Made by a program: the position numbers and the translations under genes. Shown piece by piece: positions 2,974-10,020 of a stretch of DNA of 21,893 nucleotides (positions within the stretch are counted from its first letter, which is position 1; the number at the start of each line of letters is the position of its first letter). The stretch lies in IMG/VR virus record IMGVR_UViG_3300025543_000250, positions 1-21,893 of that record. One strand, 5' to 3'. The notes beneath the pieces are model-generated. The model made no database searches. It was not told where the DNA came from and saw only the letters and a program-made list of their open reading frames with translations. This DNA comes from a virus.

Positions 2974-3962
2974 TAGAAGATTCCTCCGTATCCAGGATCC
3001 ATACTATGGGTATCTCCTAAGACAACTGCTTCCCATCCAGCAAGGTTGTCTTTTTTGATAATACTTGTAGTATCAAACTCTCCAAAATCTCCAGTCCTGA
3101 TTTCTTCTAATTTAAGATTAATCTTTAATTGTCTAGGTAGGAGAGTGTCCATGTCATATCCTGCGGCTTCATTATAATCAATTGAGTAGCTAGTACAAAT
3201 ACACGGAATATCTTGATATAGGATTCCATGTCTCAACCTTATAATAGGAGGTCCATAAATTGGATTTTTAGAGTAATTAACTACACTTGACCTAACGATA
3301 TTTGTCCAATAAATAATTAAATCAATAATACGATACTTTAATTGCTTCTGCTGATTATCATCAATAACTATGGGCTTGATTGGAACGATTGTAGGATCTT
3401 CCTCTACTACAGTTCTGTTCGTAACAAAAGGACTAATATTAGTTGGGACTATACCATAACTTTGAGAAAACTCAGCGTGTTCTTGGGATGTCATGCCTTG
3501 AAGAGCCCAGTCTGAATTTAAAACTTGTTTTGCAGATTCTGTAGCCAATGTTTTTGTGTAATTAGTTCCTAGTTGAAAAGCCATCCCCTTTGTACTAGAA
3601 TCTCCTTTATAAGGTTTTTTAAACTTCTCTCTTTCAGCATCAACATTGTCTTTATCTCCTTGATAGTTTATATACTTTTCAAGGGTTAGCCCTGGATGAA
3701 GATCTACAATATGAGGCATTGTCATGTTAAAACTAACATTAAGGGTTCTTGAATCGGCTCCAAGGTAACTGTGTAGGTTACTAGATCTAGAAATTAAAGA
3801 GTACTTTTGATATCGTGCTTTCTTAGTTTCTTTAATAGAAACATTTTCAAAGAACGGCAACTCTACAACGTAATAATCTGATCCCTTAGTGGGAACAGGA
3901 AAGTAAAACATTAGCTTTGCTCTTTCAGGAAGTTTACGATCTACTAAGTGCCTGTTACCCAT
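2973..3962 (-). CDS. Probable baseplate/tail-tube-end protein (XkdP N-domain-like)
   Basis: A 329-residue protein with no signal peptide or membrane segment. Early residues contain a beta-rich stretch with ENVSIKETKKARYQKYSL and SRTLNVSFNMTMPHI. The C-terminal third has LPRQLKINLKLEEIRTGDFG. This pairing of 'rules about residual field plus R-x-hydrophobic beta strand L-x-L-x-E' resembles the N-terminal domain of LysM-containing baseplate proteins such as XkdP. The gene follows the tape measure, overlaps it by 8 bp, and is coupled to the LysM-like gene by TAATG, exactly where XkdP-like genes sit. The likely role is connecting tail tube and baseplate hub. The resemblance is by eye only. The alternative is an unrelated virion protein fixed in this position. 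Confidence 0.5.
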   Translation of the reverse strand: MGNRHLVDRKLPERAKLMFYFPVPTKGSDYYVVELPFFENVSIKETKKARYQKYSLISRSSNLHSYLGADSRTLNVSFNMTMPHIVDLHPGLTLEKYINYQGDKDNVDAEREKFKKPYKGDSSTKGMAFQLGTNYTKTLATESAKQVLNSDWALQGMTSQEHAEFSQSYGIVPTNISPFVTNRTVVEEDPTIVPIKPIVIDDNQQKQLKYRIIDLIIYWTNIVRSSVVNYSKNPIYGPPIIRLRHGILYQDIPCICTSYSIDYNEAAGYDMDTLLPRQLKINLKLEEIRTGDFGEFDTTSIIKKDNLAGWEAVVLGDTHSMDPGYGGIF

Positions 3963-5715
3963 TTAAACTATTCTCCGCTTTACTTTCCATAGAACCTGGT
4001 TCTTTAGACATTGCAATTATATTGGCAGCCTTTAACTCTTCTAACATTTCTTCAGAAGTAGTGTCTCGACCAATTCCCAAGATGTTTTCAATGCTTTCAG
4101 ACAAGATGCTTGCTGTCTCTCCTAAGAACTCAGATTTGGTAGCTATCTCAGGTGTTTTATTATTAATCTCCTCTGTGTTTTTTGCAGTTTCTGCGGCAGA
4201 CTCATTAGCCCTAGTTCTCAAAGCAACATCACTTTCTATGTTGCTCCTGATGTTATTTAGTTGGTTAAGCATGGAACTCAGCCCTTTATTAATTGGGGAT
4301 TCTTTCGCAGTAAAGTCTTTAGTAAAATCAAAATCTGACGAGGATCCACCTGCTCTTCTATGAGCTATGAATGCTTGTACTAAAGCTTGTTGTGTTTTAT
4401 CATCACCCGCTTGGCGAACCATGTCAATATCACCTTTAAGTTTTATTGCCGAAATATTTAGGTTCTCAGCTATATCTTTTGTTCCTGCTCCTAATAAATC
4501 CGCAGCCAACAGGACTGCGGAAGTAAGTTGTAACATTGCCATTTTGAAGATATCAAAAGTGCCTCCAGATTGAAAGATAAGAGTAATTTTTTCTTTCATA
4601 AACCCAAAAACATCTTCTATCTTACCTAAAGCAAGAATAGAAAAATCAATAACAGCCAGTTTAAATTTTTTCATGGTCGCTGCTGCTCCGTCCTCCCCTC
4701 CAAGACTTTCTGCAAACTTCTTAAACCTCTGTCCTACTGTGTTCATAACTGCTGAAATAACATCCATAGCTTCTAAGAGGAACGGAAAAGCTACAGCTAA
4801 TCCTTCTTGGAACGGAACCAAAATTTCATTTTTTAAATTGGATAATGTTTTTCCAAAGTCGGCTGTTTGGTCGATCTCCTGTCTTGTCCTATCTCCAAAC
4901 GCATCAGCAACAGTTGTGAAATCAATAGCTCCTCGACCCAAATTTTCCGTAGCAATTCCGATCTGACGGAAGAATGTGTCCGAACCAGCGGTGTGCATTT
5001 TAAATGTATCCGAAGCCGTCACGAATGCATCTTTTAATATTGTCCTGGCTTCGGCTTCACTCTTAGCCGCTGAAAGTTGTTCTCTTATACCACCAAGGCC
5101 CAGCTTGGTTAAGGTTGCAAACCCCTCTTCGCTGGTGTCCATTACAGACTTCATAACGCTATTGAGTGGTCCTGCCAATTGAGGTCCTAACTCAGCTTGG
5201 AGAGAAGCTACTGCTCCCATCACATCTTTACCCATTCCAGATAATTTCTGGGCAGGGAATGTGTCTTTTAATGCATCAATAGCACCAACCAGCTTATCAG
5301 TACTAATACCGTACTCGGCTCCTGTGTCAATTAAGCTTTCAGAAAGAGCGTTTGTATCTGCCCTAGAAAGGTTCATACCTGCTTCTAAAGTAGCAAAAGC
5401 TTTTGCGGTTTCTCGATATGCTGTTCCTGTTAACTGCTGCTGGTTTATTAGCTTGGCTACTCCCGCTGTGTTGCCTTGTAAACCTGCTTCCATACCAGCA
5501 ATGGCTGCGCCGAACCTCTGGTTGATATCCCCACGAAGGCCCTCCATAGTGCCTCCAAGAGAATCTCGGGTCTGCTCATATGTCTGGCCTAGAGCTAATG
5601 AAGCCTTCTGAGCGTTATCAGCAAACGCAAGGGTTTCCCTTAAAGCATTTTTTAAGCCATCGACTGCTCCAATTAGCTGCCCCGCTACTGCGTCACTCAA
5701 CATTCCGACTACCAT
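3955..5715 (-). CDS. Tail tape measure protein
   Basis: A 586-residue protein, mostly alpha-helical and rich in Ala, Gly, Leu and Thr. The N-terminal region alternates long amphipathic helices (about 1-300). Hydrophobic helices follow near residues 300-330 (FQEGLAVAFPFLLEAMDVIS) and 390-410 (MAMLQLTSAVLLAADLLGAG), and the C-terminus is polar and low-complexity. These are hallmarks of tape measure proteins, which fill the tail tube and set tail length. The length is close to that of T4 gp29 (590 residues), which would predict a tail of roughly T4 length. The start ATG immediately follows the upstream stop (TAAATG), with GGAG about 11 nt before it. The gene overlaps the following baseplate gene by 8 bp. 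The tape measure role is well supported by composition, size and position; direct homology to gp29 is not claimed. Confidence 0.82.
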   Translation of the reverse strand: MVVGMLSDAVAGQLIGAVDGLKNALRETLAFADNAQKASLALGQTYEQTRDSLGGTMEGLRGDINQRFGAAIAGMEAGLQGNTAGVAKLINQQQLTGTAYRETAKAFATLEAGMNLSRADTNALSESLIDTGAEYGISTDKLVGAIDALKDTFPAQKLSGMGKDVMGAVASLQAELGPQLAGPLNSVMKSVMDTSEEGFATLTKLGLGGIREQLSAAKSEAEARTILKDAFVTASDTFKMHTAGSDTFFRQIGIATENLGRGAIDFTTVADAFGDRTRQEIDQTADFGKTLSNLKNEILVPFQEGLAVAFPFLLEAMDVISAVMNTVGQRFKKFAESLGGEDGAAATMKKFKLAVIDFSILALGKIEDVFGFMKEKITLIFQSGGTFDIFKMAMLQLTSAVLLAADLLGAGTKDIAENLNISAIKLKGDIDMVRQAGDDKTQQALVQAFIAHRRAGGSSSDFDFTKDFTAKESPINKGLSSMLNQLNNIRSNIESDVALRTRANESAAETAKNTEEINNKTPEIATKSEFLGETASILSESIENILGIGRDTTSEEMLEELKAANIIAMSKEPGSMESKAENSLNG

Positions 5716-6144: not shown

Positions 6145-6450
6145 ATGAATAACAACCTAGACATAGACATTATTGATTTTCTTGATTTAATAAATGAAAC
6201 ATTAAGTTATTCATTCGTAGAAAAGTGGAGACATAAGTTCTCTGAAAAGTTTGTTAAGCATTTTCAGCTTAAAGTTCTGGATGCAATGAACAAACAGAAA
6301 CCAATTAAACTAGAGATGCTGTATAATTACTTAACTAAGAAGTGTAAGTACTCACCTGATCAAGTAAATAAGTTCTTTGTCTCAATAGAGATTGATATCT
6401 ACCACCCTTTTATATATGGTAGCTACCCTAAGACTTCTTCTTCTTCCTAG
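6145..6450 (+). CDS. Small protein of unknown function
   Basis: A 101-residue, probably all-helical protein, acidic at the N-terminus (NNNLDIDIIDFLDLINETLS) and more basic in the middle. It has no recognisable motif or membrane segment and ends in a Ser run. It stands alone on the plus strand between two leftward genes. It converges with the nuclease gene, and the last 23 bp are shared. In that overlap a CTT/AAG repeat encodes Ser on this strand and Lys on the other. The ATG has no obvious Shine-Dalgarno. Codon use is AT-rich, as in the phage late genes. Function unknown; a helical nucleic-acid-binding or regulatory protein is only one possibility. Confidence 0.55.
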   Translation: MNNNLDIDIIDFLDLINETLSYSFVEKWRHKFSEKFVKHFQLKVLDAMNKQKPIKLEMLYNYLTKKCKYSPDQVNKFFVSIEIDIYHPFIYGSYPKTSSSS

Positions 6451-7204
6451 ATTTTAAGTCTTCTATTGTCTTCTGTACCTCATGCATTGTACAGAACTCA
6501 GGGCAAGCAGTCTTGTAGGCACACCAGTTACAGTATTCATTCCTATTAGCCTTCATCTCATCCTTCTTCTTCTTGCGGATCTTCCAGACCTCATCAACGA
6601 TCTTTCTTAGGTGAGCATTGATTTGGGGTACTGAGTACTGCACATGTACAAAGTTATTCGTTAGAGGGTAGTAGTGTGCAGCAATAATCTTAGAGACGGG
6701 GACCTTGTATAGCTTGCTGATGGCGTATACATAACCTTTCAGTTGTGTGTCCTGATAAAGCTCTACTTTACTTTTTTCTCTCTTAGAAGTCTTATAGTCA
6801 ATGATAAGGAATCCTCCATCCTCACCCTTGATGATACGGTCGATTACGCCGTTCAGCGTTATGTCATCTTTGACGGGGACTTCAAAGACTAGTTCAGTTC
6901 CTACCGTCTCACCTAGTTTTGCGTTGAAGGAAAGAAAATTGTCGATACATTTTAAATCCTTGCCCTCGTACTTCTTTGATACCTTGTATGAGCCTTTCAC
7001 TTCTTCAGCGATCAACTTCATCTCATCTTGAGATTTTGCGTTCACTCCGTCCTCAAGGATCTTGTGGATGTATGATCCAAAGTGAAGAGCCTCGGTGTTG
7101 GTCTCAGGGGGTTCAGGAAGCCTATCAACATACCGATAACGGTATTTTAACTGGCATTGTTTAAAGGTCTGGAATTTAGATTCGGAAATTGTTTTTATGT
7201 ACAT
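6428..7204 (-). CDS. PD-(D/E)XK nuclease, Cas4/RecB-like, with Fe-S cluster cysteines
   Basis: A 258-residue nuclease of the RecB/Cas4/AddB type. Visible motifs are FGSYIHKILE with His47 (motif I), GVIDR with Asp122, the core IIDYKTSK with Asp136 and Lys138, and QLKGY (Gln154, Tyr158), the usual QxxxY. Cys17 near the N-terminus plus Cys225, Cys228 and Cys234 (CNWC...C) match the split four-cysteine 4Fe-4S site of Cas4, Dna2 and AddB; Cys238 is extra. Such enzymes are DNA exonucleases or end-processing nucleases. Next to a primase and near UvsW, a role in phage replication or recombination is likely. GAGGTG lies 5 nt before the ATG. The start codon lies in the palindrome shared with the divergent primase. 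The C-terminus is a Lys-rich tail (RKKKKS) overlapping the convergent small gene. Confidence 0.85.
   Translation of the reverse strand: MYIKTISESKFQTFKQCQLKYRYRYVDRLPEPPETNTEALHFGSYIHKILEDGVNAKSQDEMKLIAEEVKGSYKVSKKYEGKDLKCIDNFLSFNAKLGETVGTELVFEVPVKDDITLNGVIDRIIKGEDGGFLIIDYKTSKREKSKVELYQDTQLKGYVYAISKLYKVPVSKIIAAHYYPLTNNFVHVQYSVPQINAHLRKIVDEVWKIRKKKKDEMKANRNEYCNWCAYKTACPEFCTMHEVQKTIEDLKSRKKKKS
7197..7204. other. Palindrome ATGTACAT shared by two divergent start codons
   Basis: The palindrome ATGTACAT contains the ATG of the primase on the plus strand and the ATG of the nuclease on the minus strand, so both proteins begin Met-Tyr-Ile. The genes have no spacer, and each gene's ribosome site and any promoter must lie within the other's coding sequence. 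A Shine-Dalgarno (GAGGTG, 7210-7215 read leftward) is clear for the nuclease; none is clear for the primase. Confidence 0.75.
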
Positions 7205-8189
7205 TATAGCACCTCAGTTTATTAGAGACTACATCACGCGAAACTTCTCGTCTATTGGCAAACTATCTGCTAGTGGACGCGAGTTTATTATGGAATCCCT
7301 ATTCGTGAATAACGATTGGAAGAAGCACATGAGCGTCAATGTAGATAGTGGCATGTGGCAGTGCTTTAAGACAGGTAGGTCAGGAAACTTTGTCCGACTG
7401 TACTCCGAGGCAGAAGGCATTCCTTACTTCAGAGCGCAACGCGATCTAATGATTAGGAACTTTGAGTTCTTAGGTGAAGAGATTCCCGAATTAGATATCC
7501 CCCAAAAGGAGCTAGAGCTAGACACTAGCAGATTAATTCCTATCAATCTAGAGTCAGTGGACTCAGAAAACAAGAAGGAGGTTGACGCTTGGAGCTTCTT
7601 ATTTGGTCGTGGCTTGTTCAACCTCAACGAAGAAGAAGAAGCCCCGTTTTACCTTTGCACCGAGGGCAAGTTCTCTGACAGGATTATTATTCCTTTCAGA
7701 TCAGAGGATACCGTGTTCTACTTTCAAGCCCGTGCCCTGTACGACCAGTCCCCGAAATACTTAAACCCCTCAACCGAGATTGCCCCGAAGCCCTCTGACA
7801 TCCTTTATCCATATGACGAAGGGGAAGACTACCTAGTTGTATGTGAGGGGCCTCTCGACGCTCTCTCGCTTCAGCGGAAAGGAATCAACGCCACTGCTAC
7901 CATTGGAAGCTCAATCAGCCCCAGACAGGCTGAGATCCTCTCTACCTTCAAGGGAAAAGTAATCCTAGGCTACGACAACGATGAAGCAGGACAACGGGGA
8001 ATTGACAAATTTGATAGAACTAGAAAAGAAATGAGGATGGCAAGCTTTGAGATCTGCCCACCACCCTCGGGATACAAAGACTGGAATGAAGCACACATGG
8101 CTGGAGAAGACCTCTTCTCATGGATTATGGATAAGTCCCAGTCGTATGATTTTGACTACAAGTCTGCTAATATGCTCAACTCACTGTGA
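7197..8189 (+). CDS. DnaG-type DNA primase with degenerate zinc domain
   Basis: A 330-residue primase. The N-terminal domain (about 20-80) has the SVNVDSGMWQCFKTGRSGNF pattern of CHC2-type zinc-binding domains. Only Cys56 remains, so zinc ligands appear lost while the fold outline is kept. The C-terminal half is a TOPRIM domain: CEGPLDAL (Glu217, Asp221), then GYDNDEAG (Asp260, Asp262), then KDWNEA (294-299), the usual 'KDxNE' motif of DnaG-type primases. The length fits T4-like primases without a fused helicase. It would make RNA primers on the lagging strand, probably with a replicative helicase encoded elsewhere. The start is fixed by the shared palindrome with the nuclease. The last 14 bp overlap the convergent structural gene. 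GC-ending codons look more common here than in the neighbouring virion genes. Assignment is secure; activity with a degenerate zinc domain is inferred. Confidence 0.9.
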   Translation: MYIIAPQFIRDYITRNFSSIGKLSASGREFIMESLFVNNDWKKHMSVNVDSGMWQCFKTGRSGNFVRLYSEAEGIPYFRAQRDLMIRNFEFLGEEIPELDIPQKELELDTSRLIPINLESVDSENKKEVDAWSFLFGRGLFNLNEEEEAPFYLCTEGKFSDRIIIPFRSEDTVFYFQARALYDQSPKYLNPSTEIAPKPSDILYPYDEGEDYLVVCEGPLDALSLQRKGINATATIGSSISPRQAEILSTFKGKVILGYDNDEAGQRGIDKFDRTRKEMRMASFEICPPPSGYKDWNEAHMAGEDLFSWIMDKSQSYDFDYKSANMLNSL

Positions 8190-9123
8190 AGTAGTATGGA
8201 ACACTAACTAAAGTTTCATTTAGTAAGTCGTACTTAACCACCACTCGGTAGGCTCCTGTTAGTCCTGCAAAATCAGCAACATTGGGATGGGTAGCCAATG
8301 TGGTTGTATCAAATTTAAAAATGATGGTATTATCAGAGGTTATATCAATAAGCGAGCTAGTGTCTGAATACCCCGATACATTTACATGAGAAGGAAGAGC
8401 AACAGCGTCTTCATTCATCTTTTCAATTTTCATTTGAGCATTGGTAATAGCTGAATCTTTAAAGATATTTTTAATACTTTCATCAAGATCTCTATTTTGA
8501 ATAGTAATATCCGTTGTAATCTTTAGGTTTTCTATAGAATTCAATGTTATGTGTTTGTTAATTAATTTATTTCTAGCAGACAACATAACAGGTTGCGTAG
8601 TGCTAAAGAAGGTATCATTATATAACGCGAAGTCGTTTGTTAGGGTATTATAATCAGACCCTGACGAAAACTTAATAGTCCAACAGTCGATGTAATCTCC
8701 CACAGAACTGGCGGAGTTTGTAACAACAAGAGAGGATCCGTAGAATGTATACTTTCCCTGCTGCGTCTGCGTTCCATCAAGGACACAAATATACTCGCCC
8801 TGTTTTACCCTATAGATTCCACTAAGGGTAGCAGCGTGAGCAGGATTATATGCGGAAGGGTCCAGACCAGGCGTTCCACCGAAGTTAGCGGAAACCCCAA
8901 ACTGCATAACAACATCAGAGGCTGTAATTGATGAAGCAACTACATTGTCAGTAATAACAGAACTAGGGGATAAGTTTGCTGCTTGGTGAAATACTGTAAC
9001 CCCACTGATATCATGAGGATCATAGTATTCTCCATCATTAATAAAGAAAGCGCGGAGTGCTACTTTTTGAATTACTGTGGGCCTATTGTGTCTATCAACT
9101 ACCGTGGTGTTGTTTAGCTGCAT
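8176..9123 (-). CDS. Probable virion structural protein, unknown family
   Basis: A 315-residue, beta-rich protein, high in Ser, Thr, Val and Asn with few charges, as in phage virion proteins. It has no signal peptide or membrane helix. Notable stretches are VALRAFFINDGEYYDPHDIS near the start and a C-terminal immunoglobulin-like pattern (GAYRVVVKYDLLNETLVSVP). Repeated 'YR-V-G-Y' patterns suggest beta-sandwich domains. It lies between the gp26-like tail gene and the tape measure block. A purine-rich GAGAG lies about 8 nt before its ATG. Its first 29 bp overlap the -1 frame extension of the gp26-like gene. Position and composition suggest a tail or baseplate component, or a neck/fibre part. 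I do not recognise the family. Confidence 0.6.
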   Translation of the reverse strand: MQLNNTTVVDRHNRPTVIQKVALRAFFINDGEYYDPHDISGVTVFHQAANLSPSSVITDNVVASSITASDVVMQFGVSANFGGTPGLDPSAYNPAHAATLSGIYRVKQGEYICVLDGTQTQQGKYTFYGSSLVVTNSASSVGDYIDCWTIKFSSGSDYNTLTNDFALYNDTFFSTTQPVMLSARNKLINKHITLNSIENLKITTDITIQNRDLDESIKNIFKDSAITNAQMKIEKMNEDAVALPSHVNVSGYSDTSSLIDITSDNTIIFKFDTTTLATHPNVADFAGLTGAYRVVVKYDLLNETLVSVPYYFTVS

Positions 9124-9286
9124 CGTTTTCTCTCTCTAGATCTTCTCTAAGAAGCTTTAAAAATATTGTTCTCTCTGTACGAGTCATACTCCTTACATCC
9201 AAATATGTAAAGTTTGCTCGTTTCACAAGTATATAGGCTTCTAGAAGAAGTGAATCAATATCAATTACTTCATCTAGTTCACATCG
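9095..9286 (-). CDS. -1 frame extension of gp26-like protein (frameshift product tail)
   Basis: This 63-codon open stretch ends at TGA 9097-9095 and has no start of its own that would explain its 5' part. It is entered by a -1 shift at the in-phase heptamer T TTT TTC (9292-9286), giving a fusion of 245 + 63 = 308 residues. The extension begins RCELDEVIDIDSLLLEAY and continues with ANFTYLDVRSMTRTER, then FLKLLREDLERE. The 'short strand, MTxxER, long charged helix' layout resembles the T part of tail-assembly chaperones and small gp26/gp51-type tail proteins. An internal ATG (the M of SMTR) with AAGGAG just upstream could also express about 30 residues alone. The protein-like composition, exact frame, slippery site and stem-loop support real translation. 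Confidence 0.75.
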   Translation of the reverse strand, partial: RCELDEVIDIDSLLLEAYILVKRANFTYLDVRSMTRTERTIFLKLLREDLERENDAAKQHHGS

Positions 9287-9292
9287 AAAAAA
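9241..9292 (-). promoter_or_regulatory. Programmed -1 frameshift signal: T TTT TTC plus stem-loop
   Basis: On the minus strand, TTTTTTC (9292-9286) lies in the zero frame as T TTT TTC, matching the X XXY YYZ rule. The zero-frame stop TAG (9276-9274) follows 9 nt later. After an 8-nt spacer, CTAGA (9277-9273) pairs with TCTAG (9245-9241) and GAAG (9271-9268) with CTTC (9250-9247). They are separated by one T-T mismatch, with a 17-nt loop. GTGAA (9282-9278) can also pair with TTCAC (9254-9250) as a competing structure. Heptamer, spacer and stem match a classical -1 frameshift site. Confidence 0.75.
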
Positions 9293-10020
9293 CTCGCGTC
9301 AATTGGCAGATCGACAATCGACACCCCTCCGCAGTCCTTACAGGCAAATTTAATCTTAGTGTCAACACCATATTCGGACTTTATGGAGTTTAGAATGGTT
9401 TTTACATCTCTCAACGGTAGTCGATCCATAACAGGAGCGATAATTGATTTATCAGTATGCCCATCAATGGATACTACAAATCTCCACAATTGATCTAGCA
9501 CTGCTGCACTATCATCAAAAAGTTTTTCGTCTTTAACCCTAGGGAGGCGCACTACAACTTCTTTCTTTAATTCAGGAAGAATAATTGTTGTAGGGTCTTC
9601 AAAATCATCAGGGACAGGGTTAACATTTAGTTGCGACAACATAACAGTAGTAGGATTCTCTGCTCCACAATGGGTGCAAAGTAATAAAGTACTATAATCA
9701 TCTCCGTAAGAAATTTCTCTTAATTTCATAATTAAGAAAAGCTTATCCATAGGGAGGAGGTCATTAACCTTTACATTTGTGACGCACTTTTGAAGAACCA
9801 GGTTAACAGGATCCTCCGTTTTCTTAGCGGTTACAATGCTTTTTTCATCATCGAACGTCATAGGTCGAATAGTTACTGGCAAATCCTCGTCTTCTAATGT
9901 GTATGCTTTACACTCAGAAGGAAGATTAACTTCTACTGCGGTATCAGTAGGAAGCTCTTTTAACAGATCATTAATAATTTCTTGCTTGGCAGAGTCGTTC
10001 TGCGGATTGTTCGTTATCAT
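9274..10020 (-). CDS. gp26-like baseplate/tail-assembly protein (zero-frame product)
   Basis: A 248-residue protein of the T4 gp26-like baseplate type. The N-terminal region contains LPVTIRPMTFDDEKSIVTAK, the typical 'v.lRpmt..dek.l' strand-helix pattern of this family. It is followed by LFLIMKLREISYGDDYS. Two Cys pairs, CTHC near residue 118 and CKDC near 231, suggest a zinc ribbon. The acidic N-terminus resembles tail-assembly chaperones. AGGAG lies 6 nt before the ATG, in the 41-bp gap shared with the divergent uvsW. The gene lies upstream of the tape measure, though separated by other genes. Near the end a slippery T TTT TTC allows -1 frameshifting into a 63-residue extension. Family membership is well supported. 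I infer that the ratio of short to long product matters for tail or baseplate assembly, as in lambda G/GT. Confidence 0.78.
   Translation of the reverse strand: MITNNPQNDSAKQEIINDLLKELPTDTAVEVNLPSECKAYTLEDEDLPVTIRPMTFDDEKSIVTAKKTEDPVNLVLQKCVTNVKVNDLLPMDKLFLIMKLREISYGDDYSTLLLCTHCGAENPTTVMLSQLNVNPVPDDFEDPTTIILPELKKEVVVRLPRVKDEKLFDDSAAVLDQLWRFVVSIDGHTDKSIIAPVMDRLPLRDVKTILNSIKSEYGVDTKIKFACKDCGGVSIVDLPIDASFFDVN

Follow-up and report, generated by a model that had tools for sequence, protein, structure and literature searches.

Tailed phages commonly use frameshifting to make a chaperone in two forms, one short and one long. For the lambda pair gpG/gpGT, the roles of the two forms have been described (PMC5009743) and provide the model for the mechanism considered here. 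With regard to T4-like phages, the gp26/gp51 family was proposed in 2022 as the tail assembly chaperone (TAC) pair (Vladimirov, Gautam and Davidson 2022, as cited in PMC10885494 and PMC12846349). According to the citing papers, this work covers T4-like phages in which the short form and the long fusion each have their own gene, with no frameshifting (Vladimirov et al. 2022, via PMC10885494), as well as poly-T slip sites in the TAC-N genes of T4-like phages (Vladimirov et al. 2022, via PMC12846349). T4 gp51 has been reported to be absent from the particle (PMC3004832).

We analysed a stretch of 21,893 nucleotides of viral DNA (IMG/VR record IMGVR_UViG_3300025543_000250), referred to as the window, in which the end of a gp26-family gene overlaps a second open frame. 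This locus very probably encodes the G/GT-type tail assembly chaperones of a marine T4-like phage, in a short form and a -1-shifted long form. The features at the locus are as follows:

9274..10020, minus strand: gp26-family open reading frame of 248 codons, encoding the 248-aa short form (TAC-N)
9286..9292, minus strand: slippery heptamer T TTT TTC, in phase with the 248-codon open reading frame
9274..9276, minus strand: zero-frame stop codon TAG that ends the short form, 9 nt past the heptamer
9095..9286, minus strand: extension in the -1 frame, 63 codons from CGA (9286), followed by TGA at 9097-9095
9241..9277, minus strand: hairpin and likely stimulator, stem 9277-9268 with 9250-9241, 8-nt spacer

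A first-pass annotation, made from the window alone, had noted the in-phase heptamer, the TAG 9 nt further on, the 63 open codons in the -1 frame and a stem with one mismatch after an 8-nt spacer. When the coordinates were re-derived, all of these agreed; the -1 frame runs to the TGA, translation across the shift gives a fusion of 308 aa (TAC-NC), and the observation at 9274-10020 on the minus strand is confirmed as real. The peptide predicted to span the shift junction is SFFRCELDEVIDIDS. As a chance estimate, about 19% of the window's stop triplets have at least 59 open -1 codons after them, and the open frame alone is thus weak evidence; an in-phase slippery heptamer together with a long -1 extension is found in one of the 24 window genes, the gp26-family gene. 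GGAGGGG, located 5' of the slip site, was considered as a Shine-Dalgarno-like stimulator and rejected, as it lies about 31 nt away, which is too far, and codes for the CxxCGG motif.

A scan of IMG/VR viral contigs yielded 35 relatives with 39-79% identity, for a total of 36 sequences with the window; codon and hairpin counts rest on 29 distinct sequences. The alignment of homologous loci that the first-pass annotation had proposed as a check came out in favor of the frameshift, as the gp26 stop is preceded by T TTT TTY at a distance of exactly 16 nt in all 36 sequences, and beyond this stop the -1 extension is open for another 50-60 codons in each of them; because both heptamer and extension are conserved throughout, the reality of the frameshift arrangement is settled. 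Mismatches in the extension fall at -1 frame codon positions 1, 2 and 3 in 7273, 4262 and 10821 cases, respectively, with the third position dominating, and the median dN/dS is 0.20; judged by these substitution patterns, the extension is under purifying selection. The comparison of synonymous sites, likewise proposed beforehand, pointed the same way: the first Phe codon of the slip site is TTT in 29 of 29 sequences and represents the sole single-codon column among 53 conserved gp26 columns, whereas Phe overall is encoded by TTC in a quarter of cases. On this comparison of homologues, the initial proposal of a -1 shift that yields 248- and 308-aa products is strongly supported.

The hairpin is less uniformly conserved. 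In the window, the stem consists of 9 pairs and one T-T mismatch, and the hairpin folds at -11.5 kcal/mol (z -2.6). When homologues were folded singly, a stem-loop starting 8 nt past the heptamer was found in most of them (mean z -1.8 over 29; -6.2 in L026). Conservation of the stem, another of the proposed checks, was therefore borne out in about 24 of the 29 distinct sequences and not in about five, the stem-loop being absent or weak in L015, L029, L030, L033 and L034. RNAalifold, run on the full homologue alignment, predicted no common structure, and the helix was then counted directly on a fixed 13-pair model. On this model, 70% of cells pair, versus 43-52% when the partner is slid, and changes on both sides occur in 27 helix cells, more than in any of 500 shuffles; however, the control is not clean, as a slide of -1 scores 0.18 for covariation, versus 0.21, and has just as many double-changed cells. 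Strong stems are also found 3' of the slip site in the phages S-PM2 (z -5.8), P-HM2 (z -4.5) and Cr30 (z -3.8). The RNA structure of a canonical -1 site lies 5-9 nt past the heptamer; the 8-nt spacer falls within this range, while not every homologue has the structure. Based on these folds, the hairpin is a likely, though not proven, frameshift stimulator.

The 248-aa product matches PF12322 (T4_baseplate) with an E value of 1.2e-17 (64.8 bits, against a curated cut-off of 24.5) and phrog_150 with an E value of 5e-21, and contains two CxxC motifs (C115/C118 and C227/C230). A search of PDB sequences with a gp26 profile found no relative, and a Foldseek search of an AlphaFold2 model of the gp26-family protein (pLDDT 85.6) against PDB gave nothing at E <0.001. 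When this model was realigned with 594 PDB chains, only four reached a Z of 2. The top two, YqbN of B. subtilis and the HK97 tail assembly chaperone, both have a Z of 4.8, followed by 2.1 for the next chain; these two matches were raised only by a second-look aligner and span about 75 residues (139-216 of the model), and a Z of 4.8 is modest and unsafe to rely on alone. The matching viral structure models, where named, are mostly baseplate hub proteins, with SP-15 first.

With regard to the extension, it matches phrog_634, annotated as "baseplate hub assembly catalyst", with an E value of 3.6e-4, and phrog_634 is gp51. In a single comparison, a profile of the window fusion aligns with T4 gp51 through to the C-terminus (E 6e-5). 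Of the 282 positions of phrog_150, T4 gp26 matches 14-235 and T4 gp51 matches 13-280, and 235-282 are matched by the extension from C48C1, a cyanophage relative; gp51 thus consists of a gp26-like domain plus the extension. On the strength of these profile matches, we identify the extension as the C-terminal domain of gp51. Its AlphaFold2 model is helical (pLDDT 87.3); a tblastn search with the extension alone against phage records returned nothing useful.

Alternative explanations have to account for the same conservation. Transcriptional slippage at the T6 run could make the long form instead of a ribosomal shift, and a homopolymer of 6 to 8 T is indeed present at the slip site in all 36 sequences; six T are, however, short for efficient polymerase slippage. 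In addition, the unit that is frozen is the in-phase T TTT TTY, often ending in C, as required for tandem slippage by the ribosome, and it is followed at ribosomal spacing by an RNA hairpin that shows compensatory changes; all of this makes transcriptional slippage very unlikely. We consider it still less probable that the extension represents a separate small gene (gp51) with its own translation by coupling or internal initiation. Public records of S-PM2, P-HM2, phiN3 and others annotate it in this way; indeed, wherever the extension is annotated, gp26 and gp51 appear as two ordinary, unjoined genes. The annotated gp51 lengths differ widely among these records, however, and cut into the conserved domain, and T4 carries this domain as an in-frame fusion to a gp26-like one. 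Furthermore, many homologues offer no possible start codon (ATG, GTG or TTG) until extension residue 30-33, which lies midway in the conserved part, and the L035 extension has none at all; independent translation therefore cannot explain the extension.

A sequencing error at the junction, or a frameshift mutation that broke up a decaying pseudogene, would be suggested by the homopolymer, a typical site of errors, but 36 contigs and independently sequenced isolated phages share the arrangement, and dN/dS in the extension is 0.20. Because the arrangement is conserved, this reading is excluded for practical purposes and has a negligible probability. Ribosomes thus almost certainly slip back by one base near the end of the gp26-family gene, as far as comparison of homologues can tell.

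In the mechanism that we propose for this ribosomal shift, most ribosomes would stop at the TAG and release the 248-aa gp26-like short form. At T TTT TTC, a minority, whose P and A sites each hold a tRNA-Phe and which are slowed by the hairpin 8 nt downstream, would slip back by one base and read on in the -1 frame, giving the 308-aa form with the gp51 C-terminal domain as its tail. If lambda gpG/gpGT is a guide, the tape measure protein would be coated by the short form, and tail nucleation would begin with tube or baseplate components brought in by the long form. We infer the slip itself, the slip rate and the binding partners, as well as which tail parts would be recruited and the ratio of short to long form.

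The same arrangement extends well beyond the relatives of the window. T TTT TTY with a -1 extension is also found in C48C1 and its contig relatives, in nine of ten further T4-like phages examined (S-PM2, P-HM2, phiN3, Cr30, Melnitz, CZ01, YB07, AS-szw and DSL-LC02), and in the jumbo phages RAS14 and LR756511; hosts named for phages with the frameshifted arrangement include cyanobacteria (cyanophages), Sinorhizobium, Caulobacter, Vibrio, Aeromonas and Stenotrophomonas. Vibrio phage K382 (L069 1048-2004) retains the -1 extension but has no X XXY YYZ heptamer; its shift may occur at CTTTTC before the stop. SP-15, LIS04 and GXN1 (L036, L037 and L039) have a gp51-like extension in the +1 frame, and each carries NCC CGA T near the end of gp26 as the likely shift point; the direction of the shift has apparently changed inside one family, as judged from the frames. 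In Alishewanella phage Slickus01 (L040 4851-5800), too, an extension lies in the +1 frame, and the junction differs. In T4, genes 26 and 51 are separate and on opposite strands. We slightly favor a history in which the -1 shift is ancestral in the T4 supergroup, T4 and its close relatives lost the shift via a duplication that gave 26 and 51, and SP-15, LIS04 and GXN1 turned to a +1 shift (NCC CGA) for the same protein pair.

The surroundings of the locus include three further features on the same strand:

9230..9238, minus strand: GCC TAT ATA, synonymously frozen, inside the extension
8176..9123, minus strand: gene for a 315-aa protein of unknown function, whose start lies inside the extension
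3955..5715, minus strand: gene for a 586-aa candidate tape measure, proposed by position, length and composition only

The three codons GCC, TAT and ATA are conserved in 28, 29 and 29 of 29 sequences, respectively, while most conserved codons nearby vary synonymously. The element was not observed in cyanophage relatives; it could be an RNA element or an internal late promoter that serves the 315-aa gene. The 315-aa gene itself adjoins the extension in all homologous loci. At the other end, a near-palindrome, ACTATTATAG, which is kept in most homologues, is located between the gp26 start (10020) and a divergent helicase start (10059) and is probably a two-way late promoter. The 586-aa candidate has no informative family match; its synteny is conserved and its length is similar to that of T4 gp29 (118878-120650, about 590 aa). 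In the clade of the window, four genes separate the chaperone gene from this candidate. A DnaG-like primase gene (7197-8189, plus strand, i.e., the opposite strand) and a Cas4-like nuclease gene (6428-7204, minus strand) lie in this interval, in an order that is the same in the homologues that reach that far. The annotated tape measure of LIS04 is the next annotated gene after the gp26-family gene, and in Cr30 two small genes intervene, beginning with the extension itself.

The first-pass annotation had regarded the G/GT design on a baseplate gene as unusual, which is not supported: gp26/gp51 was already proposed as a TAC pair in 2022, what extends the protein is the C-terminus of gp51, and most T4-like phages examined share the T TTT TTY shift. 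Since the family and the poly-T slip sites are credited, in the papers that cite it, to Vladimirov et al. 2022, the window locus is of a kind already known. This study adds a clade-wide case for conservation, a likely hairpin and further lineages, including the apparent +1 cases; some of the lineages listed may already be included in that work. The locus shows the relationship between gp26 and gp51, two classical proteins of T4. In most of the T4-like phages examined, gp51 amounts to no more than the C-terminal part of gp26 reached by frameshifting, which supports a role of both as tape-measure chaperones and provides a direct test of this view. It also suggests that public records listing gp26 and gp51 as two plain genes should have them joined by a frameshift.

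Among known systems, HK97 gp14 and YqbN (PDB 2ob9 and 3klu) are the best structural matches to the gp26 model, but only one domain matches, and the gp26 family adds an N-terminal part and two CxxC motifs. As in G/GT-type pairs, the two predicted products share their N-terminal part and the shift lies near the 3' end, as read from the sequence. The lambda pair gpG/gpGT resembles the window locus in that a small tail gene is read with a -1 shift close to its 3' end to give a minor longer form, but no sequence similarity was seen in family searches, and the window tape measure candidate is not the next gene. The lambda slip site is G GGA AAG, compared to T TTT TTC in the window. The TAC locus of Adele and the Vandenendeviridae likewise has a -1 frameshift at a poly-T site that is conserved through the phage family, but it belongs to a different phage family and uses a GTTTTT motif (PMC12846349). 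The chaperones gp26 (short) and gp51 (long) of T4-like phages belong to the same family (PF12322, phrog_150/phrog_634) and, per the citing papers, form the same short/long pair; T4 encodes each form in a gene of its own, which is characteristic of T4 rather than of the protein family, whereas the window has one locus read in two frames through a -1 shift.
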